Source: a virus. From it: DNA of 22,332 nt. Made by a program: the position numbers and the translations under genes. A model generated the notes under the pieces. The model saw only the letters and a list, made by a program, of their open reading frames with translations. It searched no databases and was not told where the DNA came from. The stretch is taken from the IMG/VR virus record IMGVR_UViG_3300047462_000304, positions 1-22,332 of that record; one strand, 5' to 3'. Shown here one piece after another: positions 1,857 through 22,332 of this stretch (positions are counted from its first letter, which is position 1; each line of letters begins with the position of its first letter).

Positions 1857-2606
1857 TTAGTATGATTCTGGAATTGCAGAATCTTCCTCAACACTATCTG
1901 GCTCAGAATGGAATGTGTCAACATCTTCGTGCAGTTTTGTAGGGGCTTCAACCGTTTCATGATCCGCTGCTTCACTACTTGCTTGCTTCTCTTCGTAGTC
2001 ATATGCATAACCAAATGATGGGTTCATTCCCTTATCAATCAACACTTCATCCTTAATATCACGCTGACGTTTTTCTTGATTTAGGTATTGGATAAACGAA
2101 TTTTTAATACACTGGGTAAAGAATGCAAATGGGTTTGAACTCTTTGCTGGATCAAATGACTTCCACGTCTTAACTAACATCAACATTGCATAACTTTGAA
2201 AGTCATCGTTGTATGTGTAGTTTGCAAAGTTTCCCTTCTTTGCATAACGAGATGTCAAGAGCATTAACATCTTGGCAAGCTCATCAGACATCTTTTCGTT
2301 CTTTTTACTTAAGATAACTTGAGCAAGCAAATCTCGATTGTTCAAATACTTAACAGGACGCTTGGACTTAACTGGTGCTTCGACGGTAATACCATATGGT
2401 TTAAGTTCTTCTGCGCTTACTGGAATTGGAGCAGGAACAGGTAAATCCAATTCCTCAAAAATAGATTTCTTGGTTTTAGGTTTATGGTATGACTTATACT
2501 TTTTCTTGGCTACTTTTTTAGCAACCTTCTTCTTGGCAGTCTTCTTTGCGACTTTCTTTTTCTTCTTGACAGGAATGTAATAGCTCTTCTTCTTGGCTTT
2601 CTTCAT
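1857..2606 (-). CDS. 55: gp55-like late-transcription sigma factor with lysine-rich N-terminal tail
   Basis: Phage sigma factor that directs host RNA polymerase to late promoters. The core (about residues 85-200) follows T4 gp55: YLNNRDLL at 87-94 (T4 has YVNNKELL), a helix with TSRYAKKGNFANYT (118-131), and the region-2-like segment with TWKSFDPAKSSNPFAFF (147-163) leading to NQEKRQRD (176-183), which should read the -10 element. The 249-residue protein exceeds T4 gp55 (185) by two additions. Residues 1-47 hold 25 lysines with KKVAKK-type repeats like the tails of histone H1 or bacterial H1-like proteins. Residues 204-249 are acidic. The usual gp55 C-terminal clamp-binding hydrophobic patch (SLDFLYE in T4) is not visible; the end reads DSAIPESY. 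No other Met precedes residue 106, so the tail is part of the gene. The ribosome-binding site is AGGA, 12 nt before the ATG. Confidence 0.92.
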   Translation of the reverse strand: MKKAKKKSYYIPVKKKKKVAKKTAKKKVAKKVAKKKYKSYHKPKTKKSIFEELDLPVPAPIPVSAEELKPYGITVEAPVKSKRPVKYLNNRDLLAQVILSKKNEKMSDELAKMLMLLTSRYAKKGNFANYTYNDDFQSYAMLMLVKTWKSFDPAKSSNPFAFFTQCIKNSFIQYLNQEKRQRDIKDEVLIDKGMNPSFGYAYDYEEKQASSEAADHETVEAPTKLHEDVDTFHSEPDSVEEDSAIPESY

Positions 2607-2634
2607 TTTTATTGTTTTCCTACGTTAAGGGTTG

Positions 2635-2662
2635 ACTATACGGCAAAAATTGTGTTGGTCAA
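2635..2662 (-). promoter_or_regulatory. Sigma70-like promoter driving the gp55-gp47-gp46 operon
   Basis: On the minus strand TTGACC (2662-2657) and TATAGT (2640-2635) are separated by 16 bp. The predicted start near 2628 gives a leader of about 22 nt before the gp55 ATG at 2606. The -35 differs by one base from TTGACA and the -10 by two bases from TATAAT. No T4-type MotA box is evident, so early expression by unmodified host polymerase is the simplest reading. Confidence 0.6.
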
Positions 2663-2666
2663 CAGC

Positions 2667-2674
2667 CATAAATA
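2667..2674 (+). promoter_or_regulatory. T4-type late promoter of the baseplate operon (CATAAATA)
   Basis: One mismatch to the T4 late consensus TATAAATA. The last base is 22 nt before the ATG at 2697, exactly as at the promoter of the giant gene (12074 to 12097). Transcription should start near 2680, just before the ribosome-binding site AGGGGA (2685-2690). No -35 element is needed for this promoter class. The adjacent gp55 gene encodes the matching sigma factor. Confidence 0.7.
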
Positions 2675-2696
2675 TCTCATTCACAGGGGATATTGA

Positions 2697-3389: not shown

Positions 3390-3390
3390 C

Positions 3391-3777
3391 ATGGCAAACA
3401 CAACAGTTTTTAATACACAACCTACAGCATCAACAGATGTTACAAATTCACGCTACGTACAGGGTGGGTTGACTGATGTATTCACTGATCGTTTGGGATG
3501 GTGGGATGGATATAAACTAACTGCTGCAACGGATGATCTTACATTTACTCTTGCACCAAAGTATAATACACGCCCTGATCTTCTTGCATATGATTTGTAC
3601 GGAGCAGCAAATTTAATGTGGGTTGTTTTACAGTACAATTTAATTGTAGATATCAATGATGAGTTTGTTACAGGTGCAAAAATAACATTACCATCAAAGT
3701 CAAGACTTTTCTCTTCAATACTAACTTACCAATCAGGTGGAAATCCAGTTACAACAATTACAAACACATCTGATTAA
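3391..3777 (+). CDS. 53: gp53-like baseplate wedge protein
   Basis: Wedge component that, in T4, completes the wedge and lets wedges join around the hub. The 128-residue protein has the hallmarks of the family: YVQGGLTDVFTDRLGWWDG (about 22-40) and the LysM-like half YDLYGAANLMWVVLQYN (67-83), followed by VDINDEFVTGAKITLPSKSRL (an asparagine-to-proline loop typical of the family). T4 gp53 is 196 residues; the shorter form lacking the extra C-terminal part is common outside T4's close relatives. The start ATG is 1 bp after the previous stop with no strong ribosome-binding site, so coupled translation is likely. The C-terminal 20 residues are Thr/Ser/Asn-rich and probably flexible. Confidence 0.87.
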   Translation: MANTTVFNTQPTASTDVTNSRYVQGGLTDVFTDRLGWWDGYKLTAATDDLTFTLAPKYNTRPDLLAYDLYGAANLMWVVLQYNLIVDINDEFVTGAKITLPSKSRLFSSILTYQSGGNPVTTITNTSD

Positions 3778-3798
3778 AAATAAACACAATATACCCAT

Positions 3799-5982
3799 AT
3801 GGCAACTGTATCAACAAACACAAATCCTTCTGAAACACCTACAACAACACCTGTTTCAGCAAACGACAATACTTCAAATCCACTCAAGGCATATCGTTCG
3901 TATTCCTATCATTTTATTTTGGTAGTAATGGATACAACTGCATACCTTGATATATCTAATGCTTCAACAAGAAATTTAGTTAATCAAAATCCAACTCCTG
4001 GAAACGTTGCAAGCCAAGTTGGCAATAGTAGTTTCTATGATCGTAGAGATCCTGTAAACAATCCTCGTATGATTATGCAGGATGCAAATGGTTTAGGTAA
4101 TTATTCAATTTTTATTGATACTCGTCAAGATACAGACTTTATTATTGAAGATGTTGAGTGGGGCACAACGTTTATTGGTAATTCAAATACAAGTGATTCT
4201 CCTGTAGGATTGAATACATTTTTAACTGATGGACAGATGAGGATTGTTGAACCTCGTGGTGCTGAATTTTTAAATGCACTTGCTGCTTATGCAGATCCAA
4301 AACAATTAAACACAGATCCTGCAACAATGCCAATGATGATGAAAATTGTCTTTGTTGGACACAAAGATGATGGCACGTCTGAAATTGTACCTGTTAATGT
4401 TCCACCATTTGGAATCGTCTTTACAGATATCACTGGAAGCATTGATGCAAATGGTACGACGTATATGATTAAGTATTGTGGTCTTCTAAATGGAGCTGCA
4501 TGGAACCAAACATACGATTCGATTGTTGATGGCATGACGTTTTATTTTATTCCAAATTTAGATTTAGCAGGACATTTAGCAGCTTTCCAAGCTGCCATTA
4601 ATGCAAAATATTTAACAGATCGACAAGAAGTTATTGACAATTATGCTAAGGCAACAACTCCTTCAGTAAACCTCTCAAAAACTGCTATAATTGAATGGCA
4701 TTTGGTTCTTCGAACTGATGGTGCAGAAAAACTAACCAAACTCAACGATTTTGGAATCCTTTGTCCTGATCAATCGAAGAATGAAGGTATTGTAATGCAG
4801 TACAAAGGTACAAAGGAAGGTGGAATTGCTGAATTGATTAGTAAATTAATGAGTTCGTCAAAACAATGGACAGATGTTCAAATAACTGGACACGAGAATA
4901 TCAAAGAAGCAGATGATATTACAACTCGCTATGCATTTAAAATCTCTACACAGTTTGAAAAAACAAGCGTTAAGAATGGCAACAAGTTCATTCTAACTTA
5001 CTACATTGATGAATATAGCTACTCTGCAGTTGATGTTGTAGATAACCAATCTGGGCAAGGTAATGCAAAACCACCTACGATTAATCCAAACAATGTTTAT
5101 ACGTTTGACTATATCTTTACTGGTAAGAATATTGACATCCAAAAATTGGAAATGAATCTATCATTGGGATATGCTCTATGGATATCCCTCGTAACATCTC
5201 GTTCAATGCCAACACAAACAGAAGATATTGTTGGATCAATAGGTAATGCTGCGACAATACAAACAAGACCAATACAAACAAATATGGATCCACGAGAATC
5301 TATCCGTTTGGGGACACCAATTTGGCCAACAGTTGTTGCAAAGGAAACAGCAAAGAAAGAACTAAAGAGTGATGCAGCTGTTGCATCTGCGGATGCACTT
5401 TGGCGCAACTTTGCAAGCTACCAATCAATTCAAACAGATTTGTCAATCCTTGGAAATCCAAATCTTATTCAGAAGATTTCAAGTCCAAGCACAACTGGTC
5501 CTGACTACGTTAAGATCAACGTAAAGATGCCAAGTACAACAGATGATATTTGGGAGTATGAACAAAGCAATAATTTATATCCAAGTGGATATTATAAAAC
5601 ATTTTGGTTTGATGGTTATTACAATATCATAACTGCAAAGAATAGATTTATGGGTGGTCAGTTTACTCAAGATTTGCAATTGATTGGTATTCCACAAGTT
5701 TCATCTGATATGATTGCAAACAATGCTCTTCAATCTTTCCAAGACCAAAGTGCACAAACTCCTCAACCGGTTTTGTCCAATCAAGTTGCAACGCCTCAAT
5801 CACAACCTGATCAATCAACATTGACAGGTTCCAATGGTGAAATAAATCAGTCTAATAATTTTATTCAGACAACGGGCACTCCAACAACACAACAAGCCTC
5901 TCCATCACCAACAACATTTTCGTTGTTGGATCAGACAATCTCTGAAGCAATGGCGAGTGCAAAGACAACAATTAAGAGTTAA
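3799..5982 (+). CDS. Large virion structural protein, probable baseplate hub component
   Basis: A 727-residue protein between gene 53 and the spike gene. The N terminus (1-30) is a Thr/Asn/Pro-rich flexible leader, followed by a conserved-looking block YRSYSYHFILVVMDTTAYLD (33-52) that marks the start of the folded part. The middle (50-640) is mixed alpha/beta with many aromatic residues and no enzyme motif. The last 90 residues are low-complexity (Gln, Ser, Thr, Pro, Asn), ending with a short Ala/Ser helix. No signal peptide or membrane segment is visible. Being 2 bp upstream of the gp5-like spike suggests the hub on which the spike sits (the gp27 role), but this is inference from context; I recognise no diagnostic gp27 motif. 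The ATG at 3799 has no evident ribosome-binding site, though there is no better start. Confidence 0.9.
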   Translation: MATVSTNTNPSETPTTTPVSANDNTSNPLKAYRSYSYHFILVVMDTTAYLDISNASTRNLVNQNPTPGNVASQVGNSSFYDRRDPVNNPRMIMQDANGLGNYSIFIDTRQDTDFIIEDVEWGTTFIGNSNTSDSPVGLNTFLTDGQMRIVEPRGAEFLNALAAYADPKQLNTDPATMPMMMKIVFVGHKDDGTSEIVPVNVPPFGIVFTDITGSIDANGTTYMIKYCGLLNGAAWNQTYDSIVDGMTFYFIPNLDLAGHLAAFQAAINAKYLTDRQEVIDNYAKATTPSVNLSKTAIIEWHLVLRTDGAEKLTKLNDFGILCPDQSKNEGIVMQYKGTKEGGIAELISKLMSSSKQWTDVQITGHENIKEADDITTRYAFKISTQFEKTSVKNGNKFILTYYIDEYSYSAVDVVDNQSGQGNAKPPTINPNNVYTFDYIFTGKNIDIQKLEMNLSLGYALWISLVTSRSMPTQTEDIVGSIGNAATIQTRPIQTNMDPRESIRLGTPIWPTVVAKETAKKELKSDAAVASADALWRNFASYQSIQTDLSILGNPNLIQKISSPSTTGPDYVKINVKMPSTTDDIWEYEQSNNLYPSGYYKTFWFDGYYNIITAKNRFMGGQFTQDLQLIGIPQVSSDMIANNALQSFQDQSAQTPQPVLSNQVATPQSQPDQSTLTGSNGEINQSNNFIQTTGTPTTQQASPSPTTFSLLDQTISEAMASAKTTIKS

Positions 5983-5984
5983 TT

Positions 5985-7565
5985 ATGAGTGGTATGTTTA
6001 ATGCAATTGATACATCGAGTACAGATTACGACGAACGAAAGTTAACAATTTCTATTGGTCGTGTTGTTGATACAAATGATCCTATGCAAATGGGTCGTGT
6101 TCGTGCATACGTTGCAGGACTTGATCGAAATACAAATAAAGTTGGTGATATTCCGTTTGCTATCTACTGTTCACCATTTGCAGGACATCAACAAGTTCAA
6201 TCTCGTGGTCCTGAAGATGGTGTATACACAACTGGTCCAGTTGCATATGGAATGTTTGCAATTCCAAAGGTTGGTACTGATGTTCTTATTGCATGTGTGA
6301 ATGGTGATCCAACAATACGAATTTGGTTTGGTGCATTATTTGGTACACTTCTTACAGGAACTTTACCTCACGGTAGATACACATTTAATAATCCAAATGC
6401 TGCAGAGTCTGGTGATCTTGATGGTCCACTTTCTGCTTCAGAACAACCAATCCAACCACTTTATAATAATCAAACAACTGCATATACAAGAACAACAGCA
6501 GTTGCATCAAACGATGCTGCCATAGATACAAAACCTCGTAAGAATTTTGAGTGGCGTGTTCGTGGAGCAGATTTTCAATCTGCTGCACTTGGTAATATTC
6601 AAAAGAATTTACCTGAACAGAAGGTTTCAAATTTAACAGATGACCGAAACGTCTCTTACACTGAAGAAGATGGAACAAAATTTCATCAAGGTAATTTCAC
6701 ACAAGGATATAGATTAAGCCGTATTCAACCAAACGCTACATATGATCCAGCACAAGTTGATGGTGGTCAAAATCTTGATCCACAAACTTATAGTTGTACA
6801 ACTCCAGGTTTTCATTCGTGGGCAATGGATGATCGTCCTGAAAATTGTCGCATTCGTTGGAGAACAAGTTCAGGTCATCAAGTCTTATTGGATGATACAA
6901 ACGAACGTATCTATATCTCAACAGCAGATGGCAATAACTGGGTTGAAATGGATCAAAGTGGAAATATTGATATCTTTGCAGCGCGCCGAGTTTCAATTCG
7001 TGCAGCATTGGATGTTAATATCACAACCGATGCAACGTTTCGTGTATATGCAAAGGAAGGAATCCACATGACAAGTCAAGGTGAAATTCGAATGTCATCT
7101 TCAAAAGATACGATTATCACATCGGATCAGAATCTACAAATAACAACCGTAAACGATGTAAACATTACTTCAGGAAGCGATGCAAACCTTTCTATTGGTG
7201 GAACATTAAATTTGCAATCGGGTGGTGATACAAATATTAACTCTGGTGGTGCAGGATTATGGACAGCTGGTTCAACAATGGATATGCTCTCATCCTCTGC
7301 TTATACACTAACAGCATCAACTGTGAATTTTAATGGACCACAAGCTGCTACTGCAGGAACCGCAGATATTGCAAATCAGTATCAGGCATACTTTACAAAC
7401 AGGGTTCCGGAGCATGAACCGTATGGAAGAATTATGATGGATAAAAATGCTACAGATAACGATAGCGACAATAATTTTAGTTTGGAATTGACATATACAG
7501 ACCCAAATGTAGGACGTGTAGAACTTGGTGAAACAATTCCACGTAATTCGCGTTGGCATCGCTAA
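5985..7565 (+). CDS. 5: gp5-like baseplate central spike protein without lysozyme domain
   Basis: Trimeric spike at the tip of the tail tube. Residues 20-125 form an OB-fold: IGRVVDTNDPMQMGRVRAYV, then AIPKVGTDVLIACVNGDPTIRIWFG, as in gp5/VgrG proteins. Residues 285-455 form the spike: RIRWRTSSGHQVLLDDT followed by short strand repeats of the type VNIT/NLSIGG/LNLQSGG/TNINSGG, the pattern of a triple-stranded beta-helix. The segment between (130-280) is loop-rich and lacks the Glu/Asp/Thr catalytic lysozyme layout of T4 gp5; total length is 526 against 575 in T4. The C terminus (470-526) contains NRVPEHEPYGR, a conserved-looking tail, and is probably where a tip or neighbour protein binds. It starts 2 bp after the preceding gene, with AAGAG just upstream as a modest ribosome-binding site. 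Confidence 0.9.
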   Translation: MSGMFNAIDTSSTDYDERKLTISIGRVVDTNDPMQMGRVRAYVAGLDRNTNKVGDIPFAIYCSPFAGHQQVQSRGPEDGVYTTGPVAYGMFAIPKVGTDVLIACVNGDPTIRIWFGALFGTLLTGTLPHGRYTFNNPNAAESGDLDGPLSASEQPIQPLYNNQTTAYTRTTAVASNDAAIDTKPRKNFEWRVRGADFQSAALGNIQKNLPEQKVSNLTDDRNVSYTEEDGTKFHQGNFTQGYRLSRIQPNATYDPAQVDGGQNLDPQTYSCTTPGFHSWAMDDRPENCRIRWRTSSGHQVLLDDTNERIYISTADGNNWVEMDQSGNIDIFAARRVSIRAALDVNITTDATFRVYAKEGIHMTSQGEIRMSSSKDTIITSDQNLQITTVNDVNITSGSDANLSIGGTLNLQSGGDTNINSGGAGLWTAGSTMDMLSSSAYTLTASTVNFNGPQAATAGTADIANQYQAYFTNRVPEHEPYGRIMMDKNATDNDSDNNFSLELTYTDPNVGRVELGETIPRNSRWHR

Positions 7566-7597
7566 ATTCAACAATTTACCCTTTGGATAAATAGGTA

Positions 7598-7969
7598 ATG
7601 GCAATCTATATCGGTTATTCAAGCTACGAGTTCATGAAGAACAAATCATTCCTGTTGACAGACATTCAACTTGTGGAAATGGATTTATTAAATAACATCT
7701 ATACACGACGTGGATCTCGTGTAATGATGCCTGCATATGGCACATTGATTCCGGAACTTGTATTTGAACCGTTAGATGATGAAACAATCTCTACAGTTCA
7801 GAGTGAATTGGCAAATGTATTTAATGCTGATCCACGTGTAAACTTGCTCTCGTTGAATGTTCAACCAAATTATGACACATATACATTAACAGCAACAGCA
7901 CTCTTACTTTATGTTGAACTCAACACAACGCAGCCTTTCCAGCTAAATATTCAATTTGAGGCATCTTGA
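7598..7969 (+). CDS. 25: gp25-like baseplate wedge protein
   Basis: A 123-residue member of the gp25/GPW family (T4 gp25 has 132), which nucleates sheath assembly and joins gp6 and gp53 in the core of the wedge. Family features: a helix near the N terminus with DIQLVEMDLLNNIYTRRGSR (24-43), the Gly-Ser-Arg turn followed by MMPAYGTLIPELVFEPLDD (45-63), a helix TISTVQSELANVF, then paired C-terminal strands ending QLNIQFEAS. The stop overlaps the leader of the endonuclease-like gene that follows. GGAT at 7585-7588 lies 9 nt before the ATG as a weak ribosome-binding site. In related phages gene 6 is expected directly downstream. Confidence 0.93.
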   Translation: MAIYIGYSSYEFMKNKSFLLTDIQLVEMDLLNNIYTRRGSRVMMPAYGTLIPELVFEPLDDETISTVQSELANVFNADPRVNLLSLNVQPNYDTYTLTATALLLYVELNTTQPFQLNIQFEAS

Positions 7970-7971
7970 TA

Positions 7972-8709
7972 ATGAGAGGTAATCAATTTACAACGGAACA
8001 ATTTATTACTCGTGCTAAAGAATTACACGACAATAAGTATGATTATTCCCAAGTGCTATATAAAAACAACTACACAAAAGTAGATATTGTTTGTAAAGAC
8101 CATGGCGTATTTCAACAAATTCCATCATCTCATATTGGGAAAAAGCCTAATGGCTGTATTTCCTGCGCAAAACAAATAGCACGCAATGTAAATAAAATTA
8201 CTACCCAAGATTTTATCAAAAAAGCTCAAATTGTTCACGGAACAAAATATGATTATTCAAAAGTAGAATATCAAAACAACTATACAAACATTGAAATTGT
8301 ATGTTCTATTCATGGTAGCTTCTTTCAATTACCATGGGCACATACAAGTGGTAAATTTGGTTGTTCTTATTGTGCTAATATGAAGAAGGGATTAAAAATT
8401 AATAGATTTCCTGATCGTGATACTATCGTGTACTTGGTGAAACTATACAATGAACAAGAACAATTTTTAAAGATTGGAATTACAGCACAAGAAATTAATT
8501 CACGTTTACATTCTCATACTAATGATTACAAATTTGACATAGTTCAACCCAAAACAATCAAAGGAAAAGAAGCATCTGTGTTAGAACAAACAATTTTGAA
8601 ACGGTTGAAGGATAACCAATATATTCCATTACATAAATTTGATGGATACACAGAATGCTTTAAATATTCAAAGCAAAACGTCGAAAGGATCACATCATGG
8701 CTCGTTTAG
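7972..8709 (+). CDS. Homing-endonuclease-like protein: two zinc-binding DUF723-type repeats plus GIY-YIG-type nuclease domain
   Basis: A 245-residue free-standing mobile-gene product inserted between gp25 and gp6. Residues 8-65 and 77-134 are two copies of one repeat: a helix, then KYDYSxVxY, NNYT, a C-x3-HG motif (C41/H44; C111/H114), and a C-x2-C pair (C62/C65; C131/C134). This is the repeat often found in phage endonucleases as a DNA-binding unit. Residues 151-215 resemble a GIY-YIG nuclease in variant form: TIVYLVKL, then FLKIGIT (165-171), R178 and a candidate catalytic E205 (SVLEQTILKRL). Start: the frame opens with a TTG at 7966, but the ATG at 7972 sits 10 nt after GAGG (7958-7961) and is preferred. 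It is far richer in lysine than the adjacent baseplate genes and overlaps gp6 by 13 bp. Cleavage activity is inferred. Confidence 0.87.
   Translation: MRGNQFTTEQFITRAKELHDNKYDYSQVLYKNNYTKVDIVCKDHGVFQQIPSSHIGKKPNGCISCAKQIARNVNKITTQDFIKKAQIVHGTKYDYSKVEYQNNYTNIEIVCSIHGSFFQLPWAHTSGKFGCSYCANMKKGLKINRFPDRDTIVYLVKLYNEQEQFLKIGITAQEINSRLHSHTNDYKFDIVQPKTIKGKEASVLEQTILKRLKDNQYIPLHKFDGYTECFKYSKQNVERITSWLV
8684..8689 (+). promoter_or_regulatory. Ribosome-binding site of gp6 (AAAGGA), inside the endonuclease gene
   Basis: AAAGGA lies 7 nt before the gp6 ATG at 8697 and is also codons of the endonuclease-like gene (whose stop is at 8707-8709). Expression of gp6 therefore relies on sequence that belongs to the inserted gene. 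Confidence 0.7.
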
Positions 8710-12038: not shown

Positions 12039-12057
12039 CTGCTGAAAAAATCACGTG

Positions 12058-12085
12058 GTTCCTCTTCATAAATATGAATTGGAAC
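12058..12085 (+). repeat. Inverted repeat centred on the late promoter of the giant gene
   Basis: GTTCC-TC-TTCATA-AA-TATGAA-TT-GGAAC is symmetrical about 12071/12072, with 11 of 14 positions pairing. The CATAAATA promoter element sits in the middle. Most of it would lie upstream of the transcript start, so a DNA-level role (protein binding) fits better than an RNA hairpin; a run-through hairpin from the upstream operon is the alternative. Confidence 0.55.
12067..12074 (+). promoter_or_regulatory. T4-type late promoter of the giant structural gene (CATAAATA)
   Basis: Same octamer and same distance to the start codon (22 nt between) as the promoter at 2667-2674. Both continue as CATAAATAT. The ribosome-binding site GGAGA (12088-12092) follows, just before the ATG at 12097. 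It lies in the 58 bp gap after gp6, one of only two gene-spaced late promoters in the window. Confidence 0.7.
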
Positions 12086-12096
12086 GCGGAGACATA

Positions 12097-15000
12097 ATGA
12101 CAGCAACTGACCCAAATTCAGACTATAATACAAATAGTACTGATCTATTTCAACTATTACCACAGCCATATCAATCTGATACCAATCGATCGATAATGAG
12201 CAATCTGTTTAATCGTTTCTTATCTAAAGAAGAAACGGTTCATACGGTTGGTTATATTGGAATGGGAAACCTTCAAGCAGTTGTTCCTCGTCAAATTAAA
12301 GAACCAACAGTTCATCGTCAAGCATATCAACTGCAACCTATTTTGTACGAGAAGATTGGTTCTGTTGAACACATCTCTTCTTGGTACGATATTTTAAATG
12401 GTTTAACAGCACAAGGTGTTGAGATTACTCGTCAAGGATTTGACGTACTTAATCCAACCTCTTCATATAAAGGCTGGGCAGCAGCACTTGAATTTAATTG
12501 GGCTCCACCAATCGATATTAACAAAATCGTAAACTATGGTGATTACTATTGGTACGATCCAAACGACATTCAATCTCAACCACAATACATTACTGTAAAG
12601 AGTGAATGTACGTCTGCAAATGCATTGGTTGACTTCTATCAAAACTTAATAACACAAAATGGTGCAACATACACAATTGTTGGATTGATTCCTACGTCAA
12701 GTTCAATTATTATTGAAGGCAATTTTGCAACAATGTTTGCAGCAGGTTTTATTTTCTACATTGAAAATAGCACCAACACAGATTTAAACGATACGTTCCA
12801 AACGGTTGTATCTTCAACATACAATGCAACAGAGAATGAAACTACGATAGTGATTCAATCTACATTTACCGATAATACAGTAAGTGGTGATATTTCACTT
12901 ACACAACAACTTACAGTCTATCAAAATATTGCAACTTGTAAATGTACAGGATATCAAAATTGGAACTCATCAACTGGATGTACAAATCAAGTTCTTAATA
13001 CAGGACTCAACCAATGGATCAGTGAAAATCGTTGGGTGCATAAGGCAGATATTACAAACTTTACAATTGCAAAACGCGCACAAATTCCTATTATTGAATT
13101 TGAGCCGGAGTTGGAATTAAGTGAATGGACATATACTACATATACTTGGGAATATCGTTCAAGCATTCAAAATTCCTTTGCTGCAACAACATTTACTCCA
13201 ACTCGTCTTGAGTTAGAGCCACTTAATCTTTACACAAACACATCTACAACAATTACTTTTGATGAACGATATGGTGATTTAACGTCTATATTTGTTCCTG
13301 GTTTTAAATTTGCAATCAGTGGAATTACACAACTATGGGTTGTACAAAGTTCAGTCTTCCAACGTGTATCGCTACCATATGGTGCATTCCAAACAACGAT
13401 TACACTTACATCAACGCTTCCAACGCTAACACCATCAATAAACTATGTCTATCCTGCTACAACATCCGTAGGAGATCCCTTTACAAAGTATGGTGATCAG
13501 TGGTTGTTTATTGGAATAAACACAACAACGGCAATTAACCATCAATCTGAAAACAATATGGTTAATCCTTCTGCACAACCTGCAGTATTGGATTCGTCAG
13601 GAAATTTTAACTATAGACTCCTACCATATGGTGAAGAGTTTGATATTATTAATAGTGGTGTAACAACACTTACATTAAGTTCAACATACATTCCACCTGG
13701 TTCAACAAGAACATTGCAGCAACGATCATTGGTAGGGACAAATGATATTCGTGTTTACTTAAATGGTATTCGTCAGTACGGAACATACGATGAAAATGGT
13801 ACTGTGTATGTTACAGGAGTTACATTCTTTACAGCACTTCAACCTTCTGACATAGTTCAGATTCAAGTAGGTGAAGCAACGTATCAAGACTTTGGAAATT
13901 ATGCAATTCCTGTTCGCACAATTTTAAACGATGTTGAATATGCAGCAGTAGGATCACAACTTGTAAGTCTCGTTCAGTATCGTCTTGCAGAACAGGTAAA
14001 GACTGGAATTAATCAATATCCATTGTTTGACATCTACTATACAAATTCACAACCAGCAGGAATTGCTAACCCAATATTTGGATATTACCAAAGTTCTTCG
14101 GGTGTTCTTTATTCCTATGTTGGTCAACGTATTGTTCAAGCAGATGATGGTAGCATTGAGTTTCAAAACTACTTGGTTAAAACAAACAATGGTGAGTTGT
14201 ATGCTTATCGCAACTATAATAAGAGTGTCCATACGTATTGGTACAATCCAAATACTTCTACTGTGTACGTATGGACAGGTGAAACTTGGTCTTCCAAATA
14301 TGAAACATCAGGTGGTGTATGGATATCACCAGTCGTTCAGGCAGGATTACCAACAAGTCCAGTTGTTGGATTAATTGCATATAACACAACAAACAACACC
14401 CTTCAACAATGGAATGGTGCGGCTTGGGAATCACTAACCTCATTTTACATCTCAACATCAGATGAAACTTTGGAAACAAATTGGCGCCACGGAACCAACA
14501 ACGAACAATTTATTGCAGAGCAAGTTGATTGGCAAGTCCGTACATATGCTGAATATACAGCAGATTACAACGCATATATTGCTCAAGGTAATACAGATGC
14601 AGAATGGACACAAATACAAGATAAGTACATTGTTCCATCTTGGTACACAGATACAACAACTCCTGCACCTGTTACACAAGGACCACTTTGGATTGGTAAT
14701 TGGCAGATCCCTGATCCTCTTTACTACAACGTAGATCACGAAGATTGGCAATATATTTCACTTACAGATTTGCAAACACACTTTACTTCTATTGTTACTT
14801 CACAACCATCAGTTCCAGGATTTGGTGGTCAAGCATCTGCAAACTGGCGCTTAATTGATTATACAAATATCAACTGGGGACTTGGTGGAACGATTAAGGA
14901 ATACGATAACTCCTTTGATACATTCTTATCCACACAATTTATTGACACTGTAACACCTCCATCGTTGTTTACGTTTGCACAAAGTCAATACGAAGACATT

Positions 15001-18000
15001 ATTCTAATGTTGCGTGATATTATGTCTCGTAATTTGGTCACGTATATGACCAATGTAACAACGTCAGTTATTTTGGATCCAAGTGCTTATATTTCATCGC
15101 AAGTTATTACAAATTACGAAGAAAATGAATCTGCAAATTTAATCTATGGTGATAGCACAACATATACAGAAGCAACAGCAACAACTCCTGCAACTGGTAT
15201 CCAAAATTGGATTGCAACTTTACCATACTTTGGAATTGTTCCAAAGGTAGCCCCATATATTTTTAATGACCCACATCTTGGTATTGCAGGTGTAATGCAT
15301 CACGATGGGCATCGTGCAACTTATGCCCTACCACAAACAACAATTATTGGATTGCAACAGGTTATTGTTAACTCTCCTGATACACGTGCAGGAACAGAGA
15401 AGATTGGTCGTATCTCTCTTAACAATCCTCCAAAATCGCAAGCAACATTTATTACCCAGTTCAGTTCTGTTCTTCGTAATGGTGTTTACTGGTTGCAAGG
15501 TACAACACTCTATCGTTTAATGGTTGCAAATGTTGGAACATCTCCTCCTTCAATTCCTGTTCCTGATGGTTCTCTATGGTGGGACACTGGTACAGCAACT
15601 TTACGACAACAACTAACAGTTGGTGGGACAATCACATATCCACCAGCACCAGGTTTTGCTGTTGGTGGAGGTTTGCTCTATAATGGTGCAACAGTCCAGT
15701 CATCAACAATTTCTGCGTGGCAAGTTATTGATTTAAACCAAATTTATCTTGATGTAATTTTGGCTGCTGAAATAGATCTATACAATCAAGCACCAGCAGC
15801 ACCAATTACACCACCAATTAATTTTGCAGCATTGCAAGCAGAAGATTCAACATTGTATGAAACATATTTGCAACAGCAATTTAATGCATATTGTTTAGAA
15901 CTGCAAATTGCAACACCATTTGCAAACAATACGTATACTGCAACAAACCCATTTACGTGGAACTATAAGTATTCTACTCTTATCACACCACCACGATCAG
16001 GTTCTATTCCTTCAGGTGGTACATGGCAGGATGTTTATACAAAAGCATATGGTACTCCATATCCACATTTAGAACCATGGGCATTACAAGGATATGTAGA
16101 CAAACCAACATGGTGGGATACTCTTTTCTTAAACACCAATCCACAATTACTTGGTACTCGTCGTTGGAGATATAGTCATGGTATTCCAGTAATTGCAACA
16201 ACACCAACTGCAATTGTATTTGCAGGTAATGTTGCACCATCGTTTACTGGATTTGATTCATTTACAATGTTCCTTACAGATAATGTATCCAAACAAGTAT
16301 TCACAATCACCAATGTTGTATATGCACTTGGTAATACGACTGTATCTGTTGCACAAGCAACAACCAGTGTTTTGGTTGGTGCATTGGCTGCTGTTGGTAT
16401 GTGGGATTATATTCTACGTGGTGCAATTCCAGTTGGATATGCAACACCAAACGTTTCCTCTATACCACAATACCTTTACGTATCGGTTAATATTTCAAAC
16501 AACTCATATAGCGATGGATCATTAATTTACAACCCTGATGATGTATTTCCTCCATATTGGGCTTACATGAATCATTTTCCTTCTCCAGTTGCTGCAATAA
16601 ATGTTTCTGTTCGTTCTCTGTTTGATAATATTAGCGAGATTGATCTTGAAAATGCTGACTATGTATGGAATGATTCAGGACCAATTCAATGGCAATGGGA
16701 ACAAACTACAAACTATTTGTATGGATTGCTAACTGTTGCATACTTAATGGAACCAGTTCGTACAATTCAAGCAATATTTGGAACAAAGTTTAACTACATT
16801 AATCAACTACCAGTTGATAGTCTAACTGGTCAGGTAATGAGTCATACCAACACAAATTTTCACGGTGAAATTACAACAGGCAATCAGATTGTTTCTGTTA
16901 ATGGTATTAACCAGTGGTATGTAAACTTTAACCGCTATGCAGGATTTGATGCAAGTTATTCTGACTTTCGTGCTCTGTGGACAGCATGGACAGCACCACT
17001 TACATATTTGTATGGTGGATTTATTGATACAACATCTTTAAGTGTTCAACATCGAGTTGTTTCAATCTCTCCTCAAGACTACAACGTTACAATTAAGCGT
17101 TCGCCTGGTGTTGCAAACTTTTGGATTGATGCATTTGAAGTATTAATTACAAACGTTCCACCTAACTTAAATCAGTACGATACACAAAACCAATGGGAAC
17201 TACAGGTCTCCTCTCTTGCTCCTGTTGCTCGTACCATTTCATATTATGGTGTTCAGCAGTATGACTTCTATGCAAATCCAATAACAAGCATTTGCACATT
17301 GTTTTCATATCCAATTGTTGCAGCAAACGCAACCCAAAATTCCTTTACTGTTGCAGGTAACGTTTCGCAAGTATTTGGACTACCAAATGGTACAACAACG
17401 TTTGAAGTTGCAGGAAACAATGCTGGTTCATACACAGTTATTTCCTCATCATACGATCCAACGCTTGACCAAACAGTAATCCTTACTTCAGGTGTACCAA
17501 CATCTGTTCCAGGTGGAATGCTAACAGCAACAAATTATCGTACAATTCCTTGGGCAACTGGAACGTTAATAAATCTTGCAACAACAGAATTCTTACCGCT
17601 TCCTCTTGAAACAGGATTGCAATATTTCATTAACGTTCTAACACCAACAACATTCCAATTGTTCTATAGCCAATTGGATATGACTGCTAACATACCAATT
17701 TTGTTTACCTCACAACCTGCTGGAATTCAACGCATTGGAACTTTGTATAATTCCTTTGTTGCATTAAATGGTGCTAACTCATCAACAACGTGGTCGCATT
17801 ACACTGTTGATAAAACATTTGTTAAGCAAACAACCCTTCCTGCAACAATAAACGGTATTCAGGATTTTATTAACTTGGTTGATGGATATTCTGCATATCA
17901 GAAAAATCAAGGATTTGGTATTAATGTTGAAGGATCATATACAGATCCAGCAACAAGCCAACCAGTAAGTTGGCAGAATGAACTTGAACGTTTTATTGAC

Positions 18001-21000
18001 TGGGCATATCAACAACGTACTGTTCGTCGTACACGAATGAGCAATAAGTATGCTGTTGATATTAATTACACAGCGGGTTCATTTACATTTACTTCACAAA
18101 ACCCTGGCTACCTACCAGGAACGCCAGTTGTTGTTTGGTCATTTGGTGGAGGTCTACCAAACCCATTATTAATTGGTCAAACATACTACATTATTAACAA
18201 TACGGATGGATCAGTAAGTCTTGCAAGCAATTATCAAAACGCTGCTGCAAGTGTTGCAATTCCAATTACCTATCAAGGTGGTGTTGGACAAATCTATATC
18301 TCCAATGCTGAACTATATGCAGCAGAACTTCCAACATATGAACTTAACCCATTCCGTAATGCTTTATGGTTCTCACCACCATACGGTATCGTTTCAAATA
18401 TTATCGTTGGACCATTTGCAGATGTGTTCTCTGAACAATTAATTTTTGACCAATACGGTCGCCGTCTATCTCCAAGCGATGTTCGTGTATTTCGTCAGGA
18501 TAAAATTACACAGATTCAATTTGAAGGTGGCGTATACAACGATGTACAACCAATCTACAACCAGCAATTTAATCCATACCAATACTTGCACATTGGTGGT
18601 GCAAATATCTATTTGGATACGTATGAGCATATGATGTGGTTTAATGACTACACAACCGCTGGTGCGTTAATTTACGAACCATTCCTTGGATTAAATATTA
18701 CGAAGTTTGAACTTGATGTCTACAAGCAAGACTCATTTACAGAACGTCCAAATGTTGGTGGATACTTCCTATCACAACCTTACAACCAAGGTGGTGAACT
18801 ATTACCTAACTTGGAAGAGTCAACAAATATCCTTCGCTACATATACGATTCATACCAAGTACCTGAAACGTTTCCTGAAGTTTTACGTGCACGTGCACTA
18901 TTGGGTTATACGGGAGTTACGAATTATCTCTCTCAAATTAATCTAACAGCCAAATCGCAGTTTCTTTTTTGGAAGGGAGCAATTCATAGCAAGGGATCAC
19001 TAAATGCAATCACTGCATTTATTAACTCACGTCGCTTTGTTAATGCATCGGTTGATGAATTTTGGGCATACAAGGTGGCAGATTACGGTTCTACTAAAAT
19101 TCCTGAATACCTTGGAATGTACTTAACGATTAACGATACAATTGCAAATGAACTTCGTTTACAGTTTGAATTAACAGACCAAATCTGTTTACCAGGTTAT
19201 GGTATTGAAACGTTTGGTGATACGGATTGTGGATATGCAAATCCACCAAATTCAACTGTATCTGTATCAGGTGTTGATCCAACATTCACAGCAATTTCAA
19301 TGACAGATCAAACTCGTTGGTATAACCAACCTGATGTTCTTGAAACATTAGTTCCTGATGGTGGTGTCCTATACTTTGACTTGATACCAAAGCAAAAATT
19401 GGTTATCTATACAGCATCAACTATTGCTGCATTTATTAGTAGCAACGTAGTTCCTCTAACTTCAGAAGTTGGTGTAATTATTAACACAACAACTACAATA
19501 AACGGTAGTTTGTACGCATACTCCTTCTGGACATACAATGGTTCAGAGTTTATTTTTGCGGGTGGATGGAATCCATTGGCAACAATTCCAACATTACCAA
19601 TCTTCCGTCATAACTTTATGGCAGATGCAATCACAATGACAATGGAATGGTATCCAGGTGGAACACAAACAACAATTTCTTCTGCACCAGCTGGTCAACA
19701 ATTATCGTTAACAATTCCATACCTTCCACTAACAAACTCACTATCAGTCTTTAAGGATGGAACACAACTACAAATTGGTGTAGATTTTGTTGAAAGTCTT
19801 GAACCATACCCAGCACCTGTTTCCATTGATCACGTAGCTGGTGGTATATTTTTTGTTGTTGGTGATTATGTTGGAGTGTTTACTCCAACAACAGAATTTA
19901 CTGTTGCATCAGCACCTGCAAACGATGGTACATATCGTGTTTCGTCTTCAACATTTGATGGTACATACACACAGATTACACCAACACCAGCTGTTGCAAC
20001 ACCAACTGCAGGTGGAGGTGGTACAATTCAAGTTGCAACAATACTTGGATACAAACTCTATTTTGCAGATACAATTAGCGGAAGTAAGATTGAAGTTGTT
20101 TATGGTCCAAGTCAATTAGGTCAGGACACGCAGTTCCAACTCGTCAATACAAACATCGTCAATCTTCTTTCGCAAGAATTAGTAGAGAACCTATTCACTA
20201 ACAATTCAACACTTACAATTTGGGGATTGGAAGTTAATAAGGAAGCAGAAAATCCAGCGTACGTAATTGATACAGAAGCAAACGTATCTCTAACACCACT
20301 AACATTCTGGGATCCAGCTCGTGGTTATCACTACTACGAAGCATTGAATACAATCAATGTTCAATCAAATACAGATCCAGCAAATTATGACATTACTACT
20401 GGTGGATTAGCAGGTTGGAAACAAAACCAAGTTGGTATAACTTGGATGGATACAACAAACTTGGACTACTTGCCATACTACGATACGTTGGTAGAAACAG
20501 ATCAGGAAACAAGATTTGCAAACTGGGGCAAGTTAGCAGACAACGGTGCAATTCACATTTATGAGTGGGTAGGAACTTCATATTCTCCTTCTGAATACAA
20601 TGCAATTGCTGCTGTCCAGGAAGGTGATAGTTCAATTGATGCATCTGTGCGTTTGTCAGGTACTGTAAGACAAGACGTTCGTTATCGCAACCGCGCATAC
20701 TCAACTGCAACTGTTACAGCATCAACAGCAGGTAACTCAACAATCGTATTAACTGCTCCAGCAGTATCTACTGATTCAACAGGATTAGTTTCAACGACAA
20801 ACTATTCATTTACAATTACTGTTAATGGAACGTTTACGAGAACTGTGACAGCTCTTGGTTCAACAATGCCAACAATGACTGATTTGTTAAGAATTCTAAC
20901 AGCACAACTTGCAACGTACAACGCAACAATTACTCTTTCTGGTGCAAGCATAGTTGTTGCAAGTAATACTATTGGTTCAGGTTCGTCAATTGCAATTTCT

Positions 21001-22332
21001 GAATTTGGTGCAGGTGCAGGACTATTCTCATCCCTTACCAACCCATCGTGGGCATATTCAGGAATTACAGCAACTGCAGGTGCACCAACAACAATTACAT
21101 TGACAAATCCATCAGAATTTCCTGCTGGTAATTATGGTGTAATCTTCTCATCTACTGGAACACTACCAACTGGATTGGCTGCTTCAACTGTATACAATGT
21201 TACAATTTCTGGTTCAACCGTAACACTTCCATCGGGAACTGCAATCACTAGTGTAGGATCTGGTACATTAACAGTTGCAAACTCTGTATGGACAAGCAAT
21301 TGGACTCTTGATATACAACAACGTGTTGATTTGGATGCAGCAATAGATGCATCAGTATCAGGTACTGTTTACACATTTGAAGTACCATCAGGATTTGTTG
21401 GTAAAACTGTAAACATCTATGTGAATGGTGCAAGTGTTGGAACAAACACTACTTTGTCAACTACACTATCGTTTGATAGTACCACACTACCTAAGATTAA
21501 CCACCAAGATCGCGTTTCACTTATTATTCCGGTTCACGTTCCAACGGCAACAGAACTTGCATTTAACCCATCTACGGCAGATGATGGTACAACGCAGATT
21601 CAATACCAGTACATTACAAACTATGTTGCAACTCAACAATTTGACACAACACTAAATGCTGCTTCATACACTTATTACTATTGGGTAGAGAATAAAACAA
21701 CTCCACCTGCAAAGAATACAAATGCAGAAACAATCACACAAGCAGCAAGTGATATCCTTGCTCCTCCTGCACCATATATGTTCTTTGCAGCACCAATAAC
21801 TGGTGGCAATAATGGTCAACCACTTCCTCCAAGTTTGGTTGCAAATACGGAGACTGGTGAAACAATTACAGAACCATATCGTTTCTCTCAAGCAATCGTT
21901 CGTGGTCTTCGTGGATACGTTGATGATGAGAATCGCTACGTAATTAGATGGACACGTGATTTCTCATTACGCGATAGCTTGAAGTTTGGACCATCTCCAT
22001 TAGCTCTCAAAGCATATCACCAAGAGTGGTTTATGTTCCGTGAACAGCAATTAAGCAACGTACCGTTGGATCTATGGAACAAGATTACAGAAGCAATGGC
22101 AGGCTACCTATTAACAGATTCTTCAACACGTGTTCCATCACTTGCACGTCAACTTTACGATGCAACATATGGAAAGAGTACCCAATATGGTATTGGTACT
22201 GATCATGCATTTTGTAATGGTGCAACTGCTATTGCAACAATTACAGCATACCTAAACGATCCAGCAAATAACTTCTATCCAACGGATATGGACAACTTCT
22301 TTGCAACGTATAACTTCAATACCCCTGCAAAT
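12097..22332 (+). CDS. Giant modular virion structural protein (at least 3412 residues, C terminus beyond window)
   Basis: One uninterrupted frame from the ATG at 12097 to the window end. The first 160 residues look like a conserved head: LFQLLPQPYQSDTNRSI, then GYIG (about 53), RQAYQLQP, and FNWAPPIDINKIVNYGDYYWYDP (split around 134-155). This head recalls large structural proteins of T4-like marine phages. The rest is Thr/Asn/Gln-rich beta sequence with repeated phage modules (listed separately), WNGAAW/WTGETW-type aromatic motifs at 726-777, and NG-hairpin units such as VYLNG and IYVNG. Near the window end (about 3260-3412) the sequence changes to helical, charged sequence (RYVIRWTRDFSLRDSLKFG). 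No enzyme motif is seen. It sits in the T4 gene 7 position (gp7 has 1032 residues), so it may be a wedge protein grown by module gain, or a side-fibre/adhesin. The function is inferred; the gene itself is certain. Ribosome-binding site GGAGA. Confidence 0.93.
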   Translation, partial: MTATDPNSDYNTNSTDLFQLLPQPYQSDTNRSIMSNLFNRFLSKEETVHTVGYIGMGNLQAVVPRQIKEPTVHRQAYQLQPILYEKIGSVEHISSWYDILNGLTAQGVEITRQGFDVLNPTSSYKGWAAALEFNWAPPIDINKIVNYGDYYWYDPNDIQSQPQYITVKSECTSANALVDFYQNLITQNGATYTIVGLIPTSSSIIIEGNFATMFAAGFIFYIENSTNTDLNDTFQTVVSSTYNATENETTIVIQSTFTDNTVSGDISLTQQLTVYQNIATCKCTGYQNWNSSTGCTNQVLNTGLNQWISENRWVHKADITNFTIAKRAQIPIIEFEPELELSEWTYTTYTWEYRSSIQNSFAATTFTPTRLELEPLNLYTNTSTTITFDERYGDLTSIFVPGFKFAISGITQLWVVQSSVFQRVSLPYGAFQTTITLTSTLPTLTPSINYVYPATTSVGDPFTKYGDQWLFIGINTTTAINHQSENNMVNPSAQPAVLDSSGNFNYRLLPYGEEFDIINSGVTTLTLSSTYIPPGSTRTLQQRSLVGTNDIRVYLNGIRQYGTYDENGTVYVTGVTFFTALQPSDIVQIQVGEATYQDFGNYAIPVRTILNDVEYAAVGSQLVSLVQYRLAEQVKTGINQYPLFDIYYTNSQPAGIANPIFGYYQSSSGVLYSYVGQRIVQADDGSIEFQNYLVKTNNGELYAYRNYNKSVHTYWYNPNTSTVYVWTGETWSSKYETSGGVWISPVVQAGLPTSPVVGLIAYNTTNNTLQQWNGAAWESLTSFYISTSDETLETNWRHGTNNEQFIAEQVDWQVRTYAEYTADYNAYIAQGNTDAEWTQIQDKYIVPSWYTDTTTPAPVTQGPLWIGNWQIPDPLYYNVDHEDWQYISLTDLQTHFTSIVTSQPSVPGFGGQASANWRLIDYTNINWGLGGTIKEYDNSFDTFLSTQFIDTVTPPSLFTFAQSQYEDIILMLRDIMSRNLVTYMTNVTTSVILDPSAYISSQVITNYEENESANLIYGDSTTYTEATATTPATGIQNWIATLPYFGIVPKVAPYIFNDPHLGIAGVMHHDGHRATYALPQTTIIGLQQVIVNSPDTRAGTEKIGRISLNNPPKSQATFITQFSSVLRNGVYWLQGTTLYRLMVANVGTSPPSIPVPDGSLWWDTGTATLRQQLTVGGTITYPPAPGFAVGGGLLYNGATVQSSTISAWQVIDLNQIYLDVILAAEIDLYNQAPAAPITPPINFAALQAEDSTLYETYLQQQFNAYCLELQIATPFANNTYTATNPFTWNYKYSTLITPPRSGSIPSGGTWQDVYTKAYGTPYPHLEPWALQGYVDKPTWWDTLFLNTNPQLLGTRRWRYSHGIPVIATTPTAIVFAGNVAPSFTGFDSFTMFLTDNVSKQVFTITNVVYALGNTTVSVAQATTSVLVGALAAVGMWDYILRGAIPVGYATPNVSSIPQYLYVSVNISNNSYSDGSLIYNPDDVFPPYWAYMNHFPSPVAAINVSVRSLFDNISEIDLENADYVWNDSGPIQWQWEQTTNYLYGLLTVAYLMEPVRTIQAIFGTKFNYINQLPVDSLTGQVMSHTNTNFHGEITTGNQIVSVNGINQWYVNFNRYAGFDASYSDFRALWTAWTAPLTYLYGGFIDTTSLSVQHRVVSISPQDYNVTIKRSPGVANFWIDAFEVLITNVPPNLNQYDTQNQWELQVSSLAPVARTISYYGVQQYDFYANPITSICTLFSYPIVAANATQNSFTVAGNVSQVFGLPNGTTTFEVAGNNAGSYTVISSSYDPTLDQTVILTSGVPTSVPGGMLTATNYRTIPWATGTLINLATTEFLPLPLETGLQYFINVLTPTTFQLFYSQLDMTANIPILFTSQPAGIQRIGTLYNSFVALNGANSSTTWSHYTVDKTFVKQTTLPATINGIQDFINLVDGYSAYQKNQGFGINVEGSYTDPATSQPVSWQNELERFIDWAYQQRTVRRTRMSNKYAVDINYTAGSFTFTSQNPGYLPGTPVVVWSFGGGLPNPLLIGQTYYIINNTDGSVSLASNYQNAAASVAIPITYQGGVGQIYISNAELYAAELPTYELNPFRNALWFSPPYGIVSNIIVGPFADVFSEQLIFDQYGRRLSPSDVRVFRQDKITQIQFEGGVYNDVQPIYNQQFNPYQYLHIGGANIYLDTYEHMMWFNDYTTAGALIYEPFLGLNITKFELDVYKQDSFTERPNVGGYFLSQPYNQGGELLPNLEESTNILRYIYDSYQVPETFPEVLRARALLGYTGVTNYLSQINLTAKSQFLFWKGAIHSKGSLNAITAFINSRRFVNASVDEFWAYKVADYGSTKIPEYLGMYLTINDTIANELRLQFELTDQICLPGYGIETFGDTDCGYANPPNSTVSVSGVDPTFTAISMTDQTRWYNQPDVLETLVPDGGVLYFDLIPKQKLVIYTASTIAAFISSNVVPLTSEVGVIINTTTTINGSLYAYSFWTYNGSEFIFAGGWNPLATIPTLPIFRHNFMADAITMTMEWYPGGTQTTISSAPAGQQLSLTIPYLPLTNSLSVFKDGTQLQIGVDFVESLEPYPAPVSIDHVAGGIFFVVGDYVGVFTPTTEFTVASAPANDGTYRVSSSTFDGTYTQITPTPAVATPTAGGGGTIQVATILGYKLYFADTISGSKIEVVYGPSQLGQDTQFQLVNTNIVNLLSQELVENLFTNNSTLTIWGLEVNKEAENPAYVIDTEANVSLTPLTFWDPARGYHYYEALNTINVQSNTDPANYDITTGGLAGWKQNQVGITWMDTTNLDYLPYYDTLVETDQETRFANWGKLADNGAIHIYEWVGTSYSPSEYNAIAAVQEGDSSIDASVRLSGTVRQDVRYRNRAYSTATVTASTAGNSTIVLTAPAVSTDSTGLVSTTNYSFTITVNGTFTRTVTALGSTMPTMTDLLRILTAQLATYNATITLSGASIVVASNTIGSGSSIAISEFGAGAGLFSSLTNPSWAYSGITATAGAPTTITLTNPSEFPAGNYGVIFSSTGTLPTGLAASTVYNVTISGSTVTLPSGTAITSVGSGTLTVANSVWTSNWTLDIQQRVDLDAAIDASVSGTVYTFEVPSGFVGKTVNIYVNGASVGTNTTLSTTLSFDSTTLPKINHQDRVSLIIPVHVPTATELAFNPSTADDGTTQIQYQYITNYVATQQFDTTLNAASYTYYYWVENKTTPPAKNTNAETITQAASDILAPPAPYMFFAAPITGGNNGQPLPPSLVANTETGETITEPYRFSQAIVRGLRGYVDDENRYVIRWTRDFSLRDSLKFGPSPLALKAYHQEWFMFREQQLSNVPLDLWNKITEAMAGYLLTDSSTRVPSLARQLYDATYGKSTQYGIGTDHAFCNGATAIATITAYLNDPANNFYPTDMDNFFATYNFNTPAN
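13246..13434 (+). repeat. Module A copy 1 in the giant protein (weak)
   Basis: Residues 384-446. TTITFDERYG then FVPGFKFAISG, WVVQSSVF and TTITLTS. It follows the module pattern F-x-x-x-(G/E), F-x-x-G-x-x-F-x-(V/I)-x-G, (Y/W)-x-V-x-S-S, T-x-I-x-L-T-S, but is the most divergent copy together with copy 2. Confidence 0.4.
16195..16380 (+). repeat. Module A copy 2 in the giant protein (weak)
   Basis: Residues 1367-1428. TAIVFAGNVAPSF aligns with NSFTVAGNVSQVF of copy 3; then FTMFLTD, VFTITNVVYALGNTTVSVAQAT. The second half is degenerate. Confidence 0.45.
17323..17517 (+). repeat. Module A copy 3 in the giant protein (best match)
   Basis: Residues 1743-1807. NSFTVAGNVSQVF, GTTTFEVAGNNAGSYTVISS, SYDPTLDQTVILTSGVP. 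This is the phage structural module of the form F-x-V-x-G-(D/N)-x-x-x-x-F ... F-x-V-x-G-(S/N)-x-N-x-G-x-Y-x-V-x-S-S-x-Y ... T-x-I-x-(V/L)-T, seen in many tail and baseplate proteins. Confidence 0.6.
17533..17739 (+). repeat. Module B copy 1 in the giant protein
   Basis: Residues 1813-1881, directly after module A copy 3. LPLPLETGLQYFINVLTPTT, FQLFYSQLD, IPILFTSQPAG. Pattern: LP-x-(G/P)-L-x-x-G-x-x-Y-(Y/F)-(V/I)-x-N/V, F-x-L, PI-x-F-T-x-x-x-G. Confidence 0.55.
18076..18300 (+). repeat. Module B copy 2 in the giant protein
   Basis: Residues 1994-2068. GGGLPNPLLIGQTYYIINNT, then SVSLASNYQNA and IPITYQGGVG. It matches copy 1 in order and spacing: Leu-Pro turn, Gly-x-x-Tyr-Tyr-Ile strand, short Leu strand, final Pro-Ile strand and Gly-rich end. 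Confidence 0.55.
19840..20019 (+). repeat. Module A copy 4 in the giant protein
   Basis: Residues 2582-2641. GIFFVVGDYVGVFTP, TEFTVASAPANDGTYRVSSS, FDGTYTQITPTPAV. The NDGTYRVSSSTFDG part aligns well with NAGSYTVISSSYDP of copy 3. Confidence 0.55.
20638..20666 (+). repeat. Left direct repeat flanking a two-module block
   Basis: GATGCATCTGTG, six bases, then TCAGGTACTGT; encodes DASVRLSGTV from residue 2848. Its partner is at 21346-21368, in the same reading frame. Confidence 0.45.
20707..21060 (+). repeat. Flagellin-IN-like beta module inside the direct repeats
   Basis: Residues 2871-2988. STIVLTAPAV, YSFTITVNGTFTRTVTALG, a helix TDLLRILTAQLATY, then ATITLSGASIVVAS, GSGSSIAISEF. The order (strand, NGT hairpin, helix picking a set of indices, strand, SSI strand) is that of small flagellin-IN/phage fibre modules. 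It occurs once in this window; the resemblance is by pattern only. Confidence 0.4.
21085..21288 (+). repeat. Module B copy 3 in the giant protein
   Basis: Residues 2997-3064. TTITLTNPSEFPAG, STGTLPTGLAASTVYNVTIS, STVTLPSGTAITSVGSGTLTV. This is the clearest copy of the LPTGL-x-A-x-T-x-Y-x-V module known from phage tail proteins and lies in the block bracketed by direct repeats. Confidence 0.6.
21346..21368 (+). repeat. Right direct repeat flanking a two-module block
   Basis: GATGCATCAGTA then TCAGGTACTGT; encodes DASVSGTV from residue 3084. It shares GATGCATC and the 11-mer TCAGGTACTGT with 20638-20666. The starts are 708 bp apart (236 codons) and the 11-mers 702 bp apart, both multiples of three. 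Confidence 0.45.

Follow-up and report, generated by a model that had tools for sequence, protein, structure and literature searches.

A giant virion protein whose gene directly follows that of gp6 in the T4-like baseplate cassette of jumbo phages

Gene content and order of the locus

The window, by which we mean the whole 22,332-base stretch of DNA that was analyzed, is a complete IMG/VR record of a linear fragment, and the record ends where the window ends. Genes resembling those for gp46, gp47 and gp55 lie on the minus strand at the left of a plus-strand cassette. This cassette encodes, in order, a virion protein, gp53, a 727-residue protein, a gp5-like hub protein, gp25, a homing endonuclease, gp6 and a giant protein (Table 1). 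The giant's frame begins with an ATG at 12097, just 3' of a GGAG and 58 bases after gp6 (an in-frame GTG at 12055 could also serve as the start), and runs for 3412 codons without a stop to base 22332. It occupies 45.8% of the window, which agrees with the initial annotation of a single open frame of at least 3412 residues filling the last 46%.

Because the IMG/VR record stops at this point, the frame that had been described as still open simply reaches the end of the contig. Nine close relatives (L008, L009, L012, L014, L017, L018, L019, L021 and L034) have a further 59-66 residues, mostly 59 or 60, beyond the position aligned with the window's last codon. Thus, the full protein is expected to have about 3,470 residues. 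The 3412 residues that have been sequenced correspond to 376.6 kDa with a pI of 4.5.

Table 1. Coordinates of the features discussed, in the window unless S-SSM5 is named
Feature	Position	Strand	Basis or remark
gp55 (late sigma factor) homolog	1857..2606	-	
gp53-like baseplate wedge protein	3391..3777	+	profile match
727-residue protein	3799..5982	+	
gp5-like baseplate hub protein	5985..7565	+	profile match
gp25 baseplate wedge homolog	7598..7969	+	profile match
Homing endonuclease	7966..8709	+	T5orf172 domain, E 1.8e-7
gp6 baseplate wedge homolog, 1113 residues	8697..12038	+	phrog_10646, E 2.7e-260
Giant virion structural protein, PHROG 10938 family	12097..22332	+	3412 residues; 3' end missing, ~60 residues more expected
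Giant: conserved head, residues 1-160, LLPQPYQSDTNRSIMSNLFNRFLSKEE motif	12097..12576	+	profile and relatives
Giant: beta module, residues 179-274, repeat copy at 1723-1817	12631..12918	+	self-comparison
Giant: Trp-rich beta stretch, residues ~711-792, WTGETW and sole WNG	14227..14472	+	sequence, model; weak PHROG 2295 match
Giant: helical block, residues ~817-1017	14545..15147	+	AlphaFold model
Giant: conserved core, residues 1880-2365, KGS/KGT motif at ~2298	17734..19191	+	relatives
Giant: C-terminal module, residues 2690-2870; separate gene from about here in L010, L011, L026	20164..20706	+	relatives
Giant: conserved C-terminal domain, residues 3241-3412, more charged, incomplete	21817..22332	+	composition, relatives
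S-SSM5 giant: PF23786 positions 4-53	residues ~2-50 (base 56342)		E 0.002 within genome
S-SSM5 giant: PF23786 positions 159-221	residues ~666-728 (base 58334)		E 6e-6 within genome
S-SSM5 giant: PF23786 positions 235-280	residues ~3454-3495 (base 66698)		E 3e-4 within genome

The cassette ending in gp25, gp6 and the giant is conserved among relatives. Among the 69 loci with enough upstream sequence, gp6 immediately precedes the giant in 52 (median gap, 65 bases) and was not seen in that place in 17. A corresponding gene order is found in the jumbo phages XacN1, RAS14, GAP32, PA5oct, CBB and Vibrio 2.275, with some genes unnamed in some records and with different leftward genes in XacN1 and RAS14. 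Atu_ph07 has the genes for gp25, gp6 and the giant side by side, and Salicola SCTP-2 has its giant apart from gp6. The gene 7 position first proposed for this frame is therefore supported by its place immediately 3' of gp6, directly downstream of a gp53-gp5-gp25-gp6 cassette, in the window and in the jumbo phages that share this order.

Three neighboring genes have features of their own. The homing endonuclease gene is squeezed between gp25 and gp6. T4 and Ps15 have such genes in or close to the corresponding interval, segC before gp6 in the former and one between gp25 and gp6 in the latter. In two other loci (L012 and L018), a gene whose product has an N-terminus resembling that of the window's endonuclease follows the giant. 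The 727-residue protein, encoded between gp53 and the gp5-like gene, has no PHROG or Pfam match above cut-off, although the proteins at the corresponding place in PA5oct, GAP32 and CBB carry virion-protein annotations. About 50 residues at the N-terminus of the gp55 homolog form a histone-like tail rich in lysine, KKKKKVAKKTAKKKVAKKVAKKK, which is partly encoded by a 27-base tandem repeat at 2498-2558 and is absent from gp55 of GAP32, CBB and PA5oct.

A family of giant virion proteins

The giant matches PHROG 10938, a virion structural protein family with a profile of 3,324 positions, in six stretches (E 4.4e-58); gp230 of GAP32 fits this profile along its full length. Searches by tblastn gave matches in 39 phage records with the window protein and in 60 of 50,697 phage records, nearly all of 280-490 kb, with the N-terminus of the PA5oct protein. 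An alignment search of viral contigs produced 216 relatives, from which 79 loci were retained. The closest of these (L008, L009, L012 and L014) share 38-39% identity with the window protein over 2,700-3,150 residues.

The Rak2-like giants GAP32 gp230, CBB_236, PA5oct gp355, XacN1 ORF325 and that of RAS14 share with the window protein the slot after gp6, the head, the core and the C-terminal module. They are also of similar length (3138-3857 residues). Identity to the window protein is ~31% for XacN1 and RAS14 (tblastn pieces) and ~21-22% over aligned columns for GAP32, CBB and PA5oct, and the module content between the conserved segments differs. In size and place, the window giant is thus an ordinary member of this known family of virion proteins from Rak2-like jumbo phages.

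Lengths vary within the family, from 3,138 to 4,449 residues in named relatives and from 2,264 to 4,457 in complete metagenomic members. The shortest of the latter (L026) is a split giant, in which two adjacent frames (2,264 and 644 residues) replace the single one. The giant is likewise divided in L010 and L011, with the break between residues 2350 and 2690, and in L055 (1,305 and 1,368 residues), near residue 1590; sequencing errors are possible in all of these cases. Two further loci (L052 and L056) have short giants of 1,868-1,904 residues, followed in L052 by a 606-residue frame without a PHROG match. At the other extreme, L077 contains a relative of at least 5,133 residues (5192-20590) whose frame runs off the end of the sequence retrieved.

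Conserved segments of the window giant are residues 1-160, near 300-370, 850-1060, 1206-1350, 1500-1650, the core at 1880-2365, the C-terminal module at 2690-2870 and the C-terminus after 3250. The core has a near-constant length of ~475 residues in most close relatives. An AlphaFold2 model of residues 1-1080 (pLDDT 84, pTM 0.74) consists mostly of beta modules, interrupted by the helical block, and a model of the core (pLDDT 82, pTM 0.62) places helices around the KGS motif. Among the PDB matches listed by Foldseek for these two models, there was neither gp7 nor any other convincing relative. Matches to coronavirus spike, an E1 enzyme and the HEV capsid were rejected as beta-module coincidences (large rmsd or at most ~100 columns). 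When compared with predicted viral structures, the core model matches other giants, including that of Atu_ph07, and proteins of uncultured phages.

These data confirm part of what had been read from the sequence at the outset. The conserved-looking head stands, because its LLP...FNR-L-TK motif is shared by almost every relative whose start is intact. Of the repeated beta modules, the beta content is borne out by the model of residues 1-1080, whereas repetition is weak, with two pairs detectable in the sequence: 179-274/1723-1817 (28% identity, E 8e-6) and 1764-1841/2854-2930 (E 0.003). The supposed Trp-Asn-Gly motifs reduce to one WNG, at residue 772, and the related WTGETW. The final change to charged sequence is a modest one (after residue 3200, 7.5% K+R and 10% D+E, compared with 2-7% and 5.5-11.5% elsewhere). 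The C-terminal region is well conserved, with 35-52% identity in most close relatives. The claim that the gene is a large part of the genome's cost is not supported: genomes of relatives are 287-490 kb, so the giant accounts for only about 3%.

Mass spectrometry of relatives indicates that these proteins are virion components. In CBB virions, CBB_236 was represented by 21 peptides (7.72% coverage) and CBB_237, which is gp6, by 13 peptides (12.47% coverage; PMC5259590). In phAPEC6 virions, gp245 (381.88 kDa), which we take to be the giant's homolog from its size and its place beside the wedge protein gp244, yielded 17 peptides (7.6% coverage), and gp244 yielded 21 (24.2% coverage; PMC7247149). 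PA5oct gp355 is flagged ESI-MS/MS in its database record. Coverage lower than that of gp6 in CBB and phAPEC6 fits a copy number below that of gp6 but proves nothing, because coverage depends on the protein too. The initial annotation's interpretation is thus supported in its structural role, as known from these relatives, and in its gp7 position; its alternative of a new kind of protein is wrong, given that the giant belongs to PHROG 10938, for which there are 60 named phage records.

Comparison with gp7

The gene after gp6 encodes gp7 or a giant in T4, in Dickeya phage JA15, in Stenotrophomonas phage Ps15 and in cyanophages. T4 gp7, which initiates wedge assembly, is, like the window giant, a virion protein encoded directly 3' of gp6. 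At 1032 residues, the length originally quoted for it, it is three times shorter. The compact gp7 of the Ackermannviridae (PF23786; 284 residues in JA15) occupies the same place and is twelve times shorter.

No significant similarity between the window giant and T4 gp7 or compact gp7 was found by Pfam, PHROG, hmmsearch or profile-profile comparison. Profiles of the T4 family (phrog_964; Pfam Gp7_helical, Gp7_5th and Gp7_6th) do not match it, and the phrog_964 search recovered T4, Ps15 and S-SSM5 as controls. PF23786 matches neither the window giant nor its jumbo relatives. Profile-profile comparison of 17 segments of the giant with T4 gp5, gp6, gp7, gp8, gp9, gp10, gp11 and gp53 also gave nothing. 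A segment with the pattern FYxxKGxxxSxxxLFKxLY, termed KG, links T4, compact and cyanophage gp7 to one another (hhalign probability 93-98%). When gp7 segments were scanned against the giants of the window (helical, KG and HPxGF) and PA5oct (helical and KG), the best place for KG was the KGS motif in the former (residues 2293-2311, probability 3%) and residues 1907-1925 in the latter, both at noise level. Because scores of 16-17 arise too for other gp7 segments at unrelated places, this alignment is not evidence either way.

The gp7 reading would be removed by a separate gp7 gene. None was recognized in eight related jumbo-phage records searched with PF23786 or phrog_964, and T4, JA15, Ps15 and the S-SSM5 giant were positive in one or both searches.

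A precedent for giants in this place comes from the Kyanoviridae, whose proteins encoded directly 3' of gp6 have 6171 (S-SSM5), 6378 (S-RIM2), 6817 (ACG-2014d) and 7124 (P-SSM7) residues. In the segment comparisons made, they show no significant similarity to the window's family. Unlike the window giant, that of S-SSM5 carries recognizable gp7 segments. Compact gp7 (PF23786, 284 positions) matches it at three places, in order (Table 1; residue numbers were computed from a gene start at base 56339). Each place alone is below the family cut-off, but residues 1-800, which contain two of the three, pass it (32.2 versus 27 bits), and phrog_964 matches at the KG segment. Inserts of ~600 and ~2,700 residues can thus divide a gp7 core, as is shown for S-SSM5 only. 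Some records name the cyanophage proteins baseplate wedge initiator, and the homolog in P-HM1 is annotated as gp7. Across 26 T4-like genomes compared in one study, gp7 is listed in the non-cyanophage core only (PMC3037559). Among our loci, L122 (40-18555) is the S-SSM5 giant and L123 (2153-23527) is that of P-SSM7, whose gene makes up 12% of its genome.

A proposed role in the baseplate and its alternatives

The family of virion proteins to which the window giant belongs has its gene immediately downstream of gp6 within a T4-like baseplate cassette, and the giant probably replaces the much smaller gp7 of T4. We favor, with moderate confidence, the view that it is a baseplate wedge component holding the position of gp7 in a Rak2-like jumbo myovirus. 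The PHROG 10938 match, gene order, virion data, lack of another recognizable gp7, the cyanophage precedent and the splits support this view. Against it are the negative sequence tests, the absence of gp7 from the PDB matches listed for the core model, the placement in SCTP-2 and the 17 loci in which gp6 was not seen directly upstream. The expanded wedge protein that was originally suggested is plausible in light of the cyanophages, but homology to gp7 was not detected by sequence tests. By analogy with T4, the protein would join a gp6 dimer and initiate the wedge through the head, the core and the C-terminal domain, with about one copy per wedge and six per virion. The remaining ~2,500 residues, mostly beta modules that separate and follow these conserved segments, would form the outer body of the baseplate and provide docking surfaces for fibers. 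Serial insertion and fusion of modules could have produced the giant's size; the variation in length within the family (about 2,700 to 4,450 residues) and the splitting of some relatives into adjacent genes support this.

An unlikely, though not negligible, alternative is that the giant is a baseplate-attached adhesin or fiber-docking arm that does not descend from gp7, whose function would reside in another, unrecognized protein or in an enlarged gp6. The lack of a gp7 signature and the predominance of beta modules in the AlphaFold model are compatible with this alternative, as is the size of gp6 (1113 residues in the window versus 660 in T4). Small parts of the giant also have weak Foldseek matches to phage tail-complex proteins, capsule depolymerases and the N-terminus of CBA120 TSP4, and the PA5oct giant has a weak match of chitin-binding type, below cut-off. 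However, no lectin, depolymerase or fiber family exceeds the Pfam or PHROG cut-off in the window giant, and GAP32 and CBB have separate tail-fiber genes. The place beside gp6, which is conserved across jumbo phages of different hosts, also argues against an adhesin, because adhesins that are specific to a host tend to vary and to change position.

Fusion of several wedge proteins in one chain, for example gp7 with an equivalent of gp8 or gp10, would account both for the size of the giant and for its natural splits near residues 1590 (L055) and 2350-2690 (L010, L011 and L026). The downstream genes scanned include no match to gp8, gp9 or gp10, as such a fusion would have it. However, no segment of the giant matches a T4 gp8, gp9, gp10 or gp11 profile, and PA5oct has a separate downstream gene noted as gp10-like, so we regard this origin as improbable. 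A chance open frame or an assembly artefact, which the run to the contig end might have suggested, has virtually no probability and is refuted by the relatives: the giant aligns over as many as 3,150 residues, at 30-39% identity, with sequences from dozens of independent contigs as well as from isolated phages.

If the wedge reading is correct and the giants in this slot are gp7, they supply a component missing from the inventory of large phage baseplates. In T4-related tails, the gene after gp6 might then be a focus of protein gigantism: gp7 would span lengths of 284 to over 7,000 residues, with insertions of hundreds or even thousands of residues breaking up its core, whose segments would still have to meet in the folded wedge. 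We advance this idea tentatively; it is supported by the matches in one cyanophage, and the same process may have carried the window's family beyond sequence recognition. If true, gp7 would be a striking case of a core protein that insertions have enlarged ~25-fold without displacing it from the machine. Structural biologists would also gain a named target in cultivable jumbo phages.

The motif DPVQGLVDYxxxIKPYHTKVVEVLVEYV opens a gene that follows the giant, either directly or a short way on, in about 30 loci (L008-L034 and others). Two copies of this gene that were scanned (L014 and L018) have no PHROG family, and the gene was rejected as a candidate for a missing third gp7 segment (probability <1%). 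In two loci, the motif is fused into the giant itself, at residue 2804 (L081) and residue 3438 (L082).
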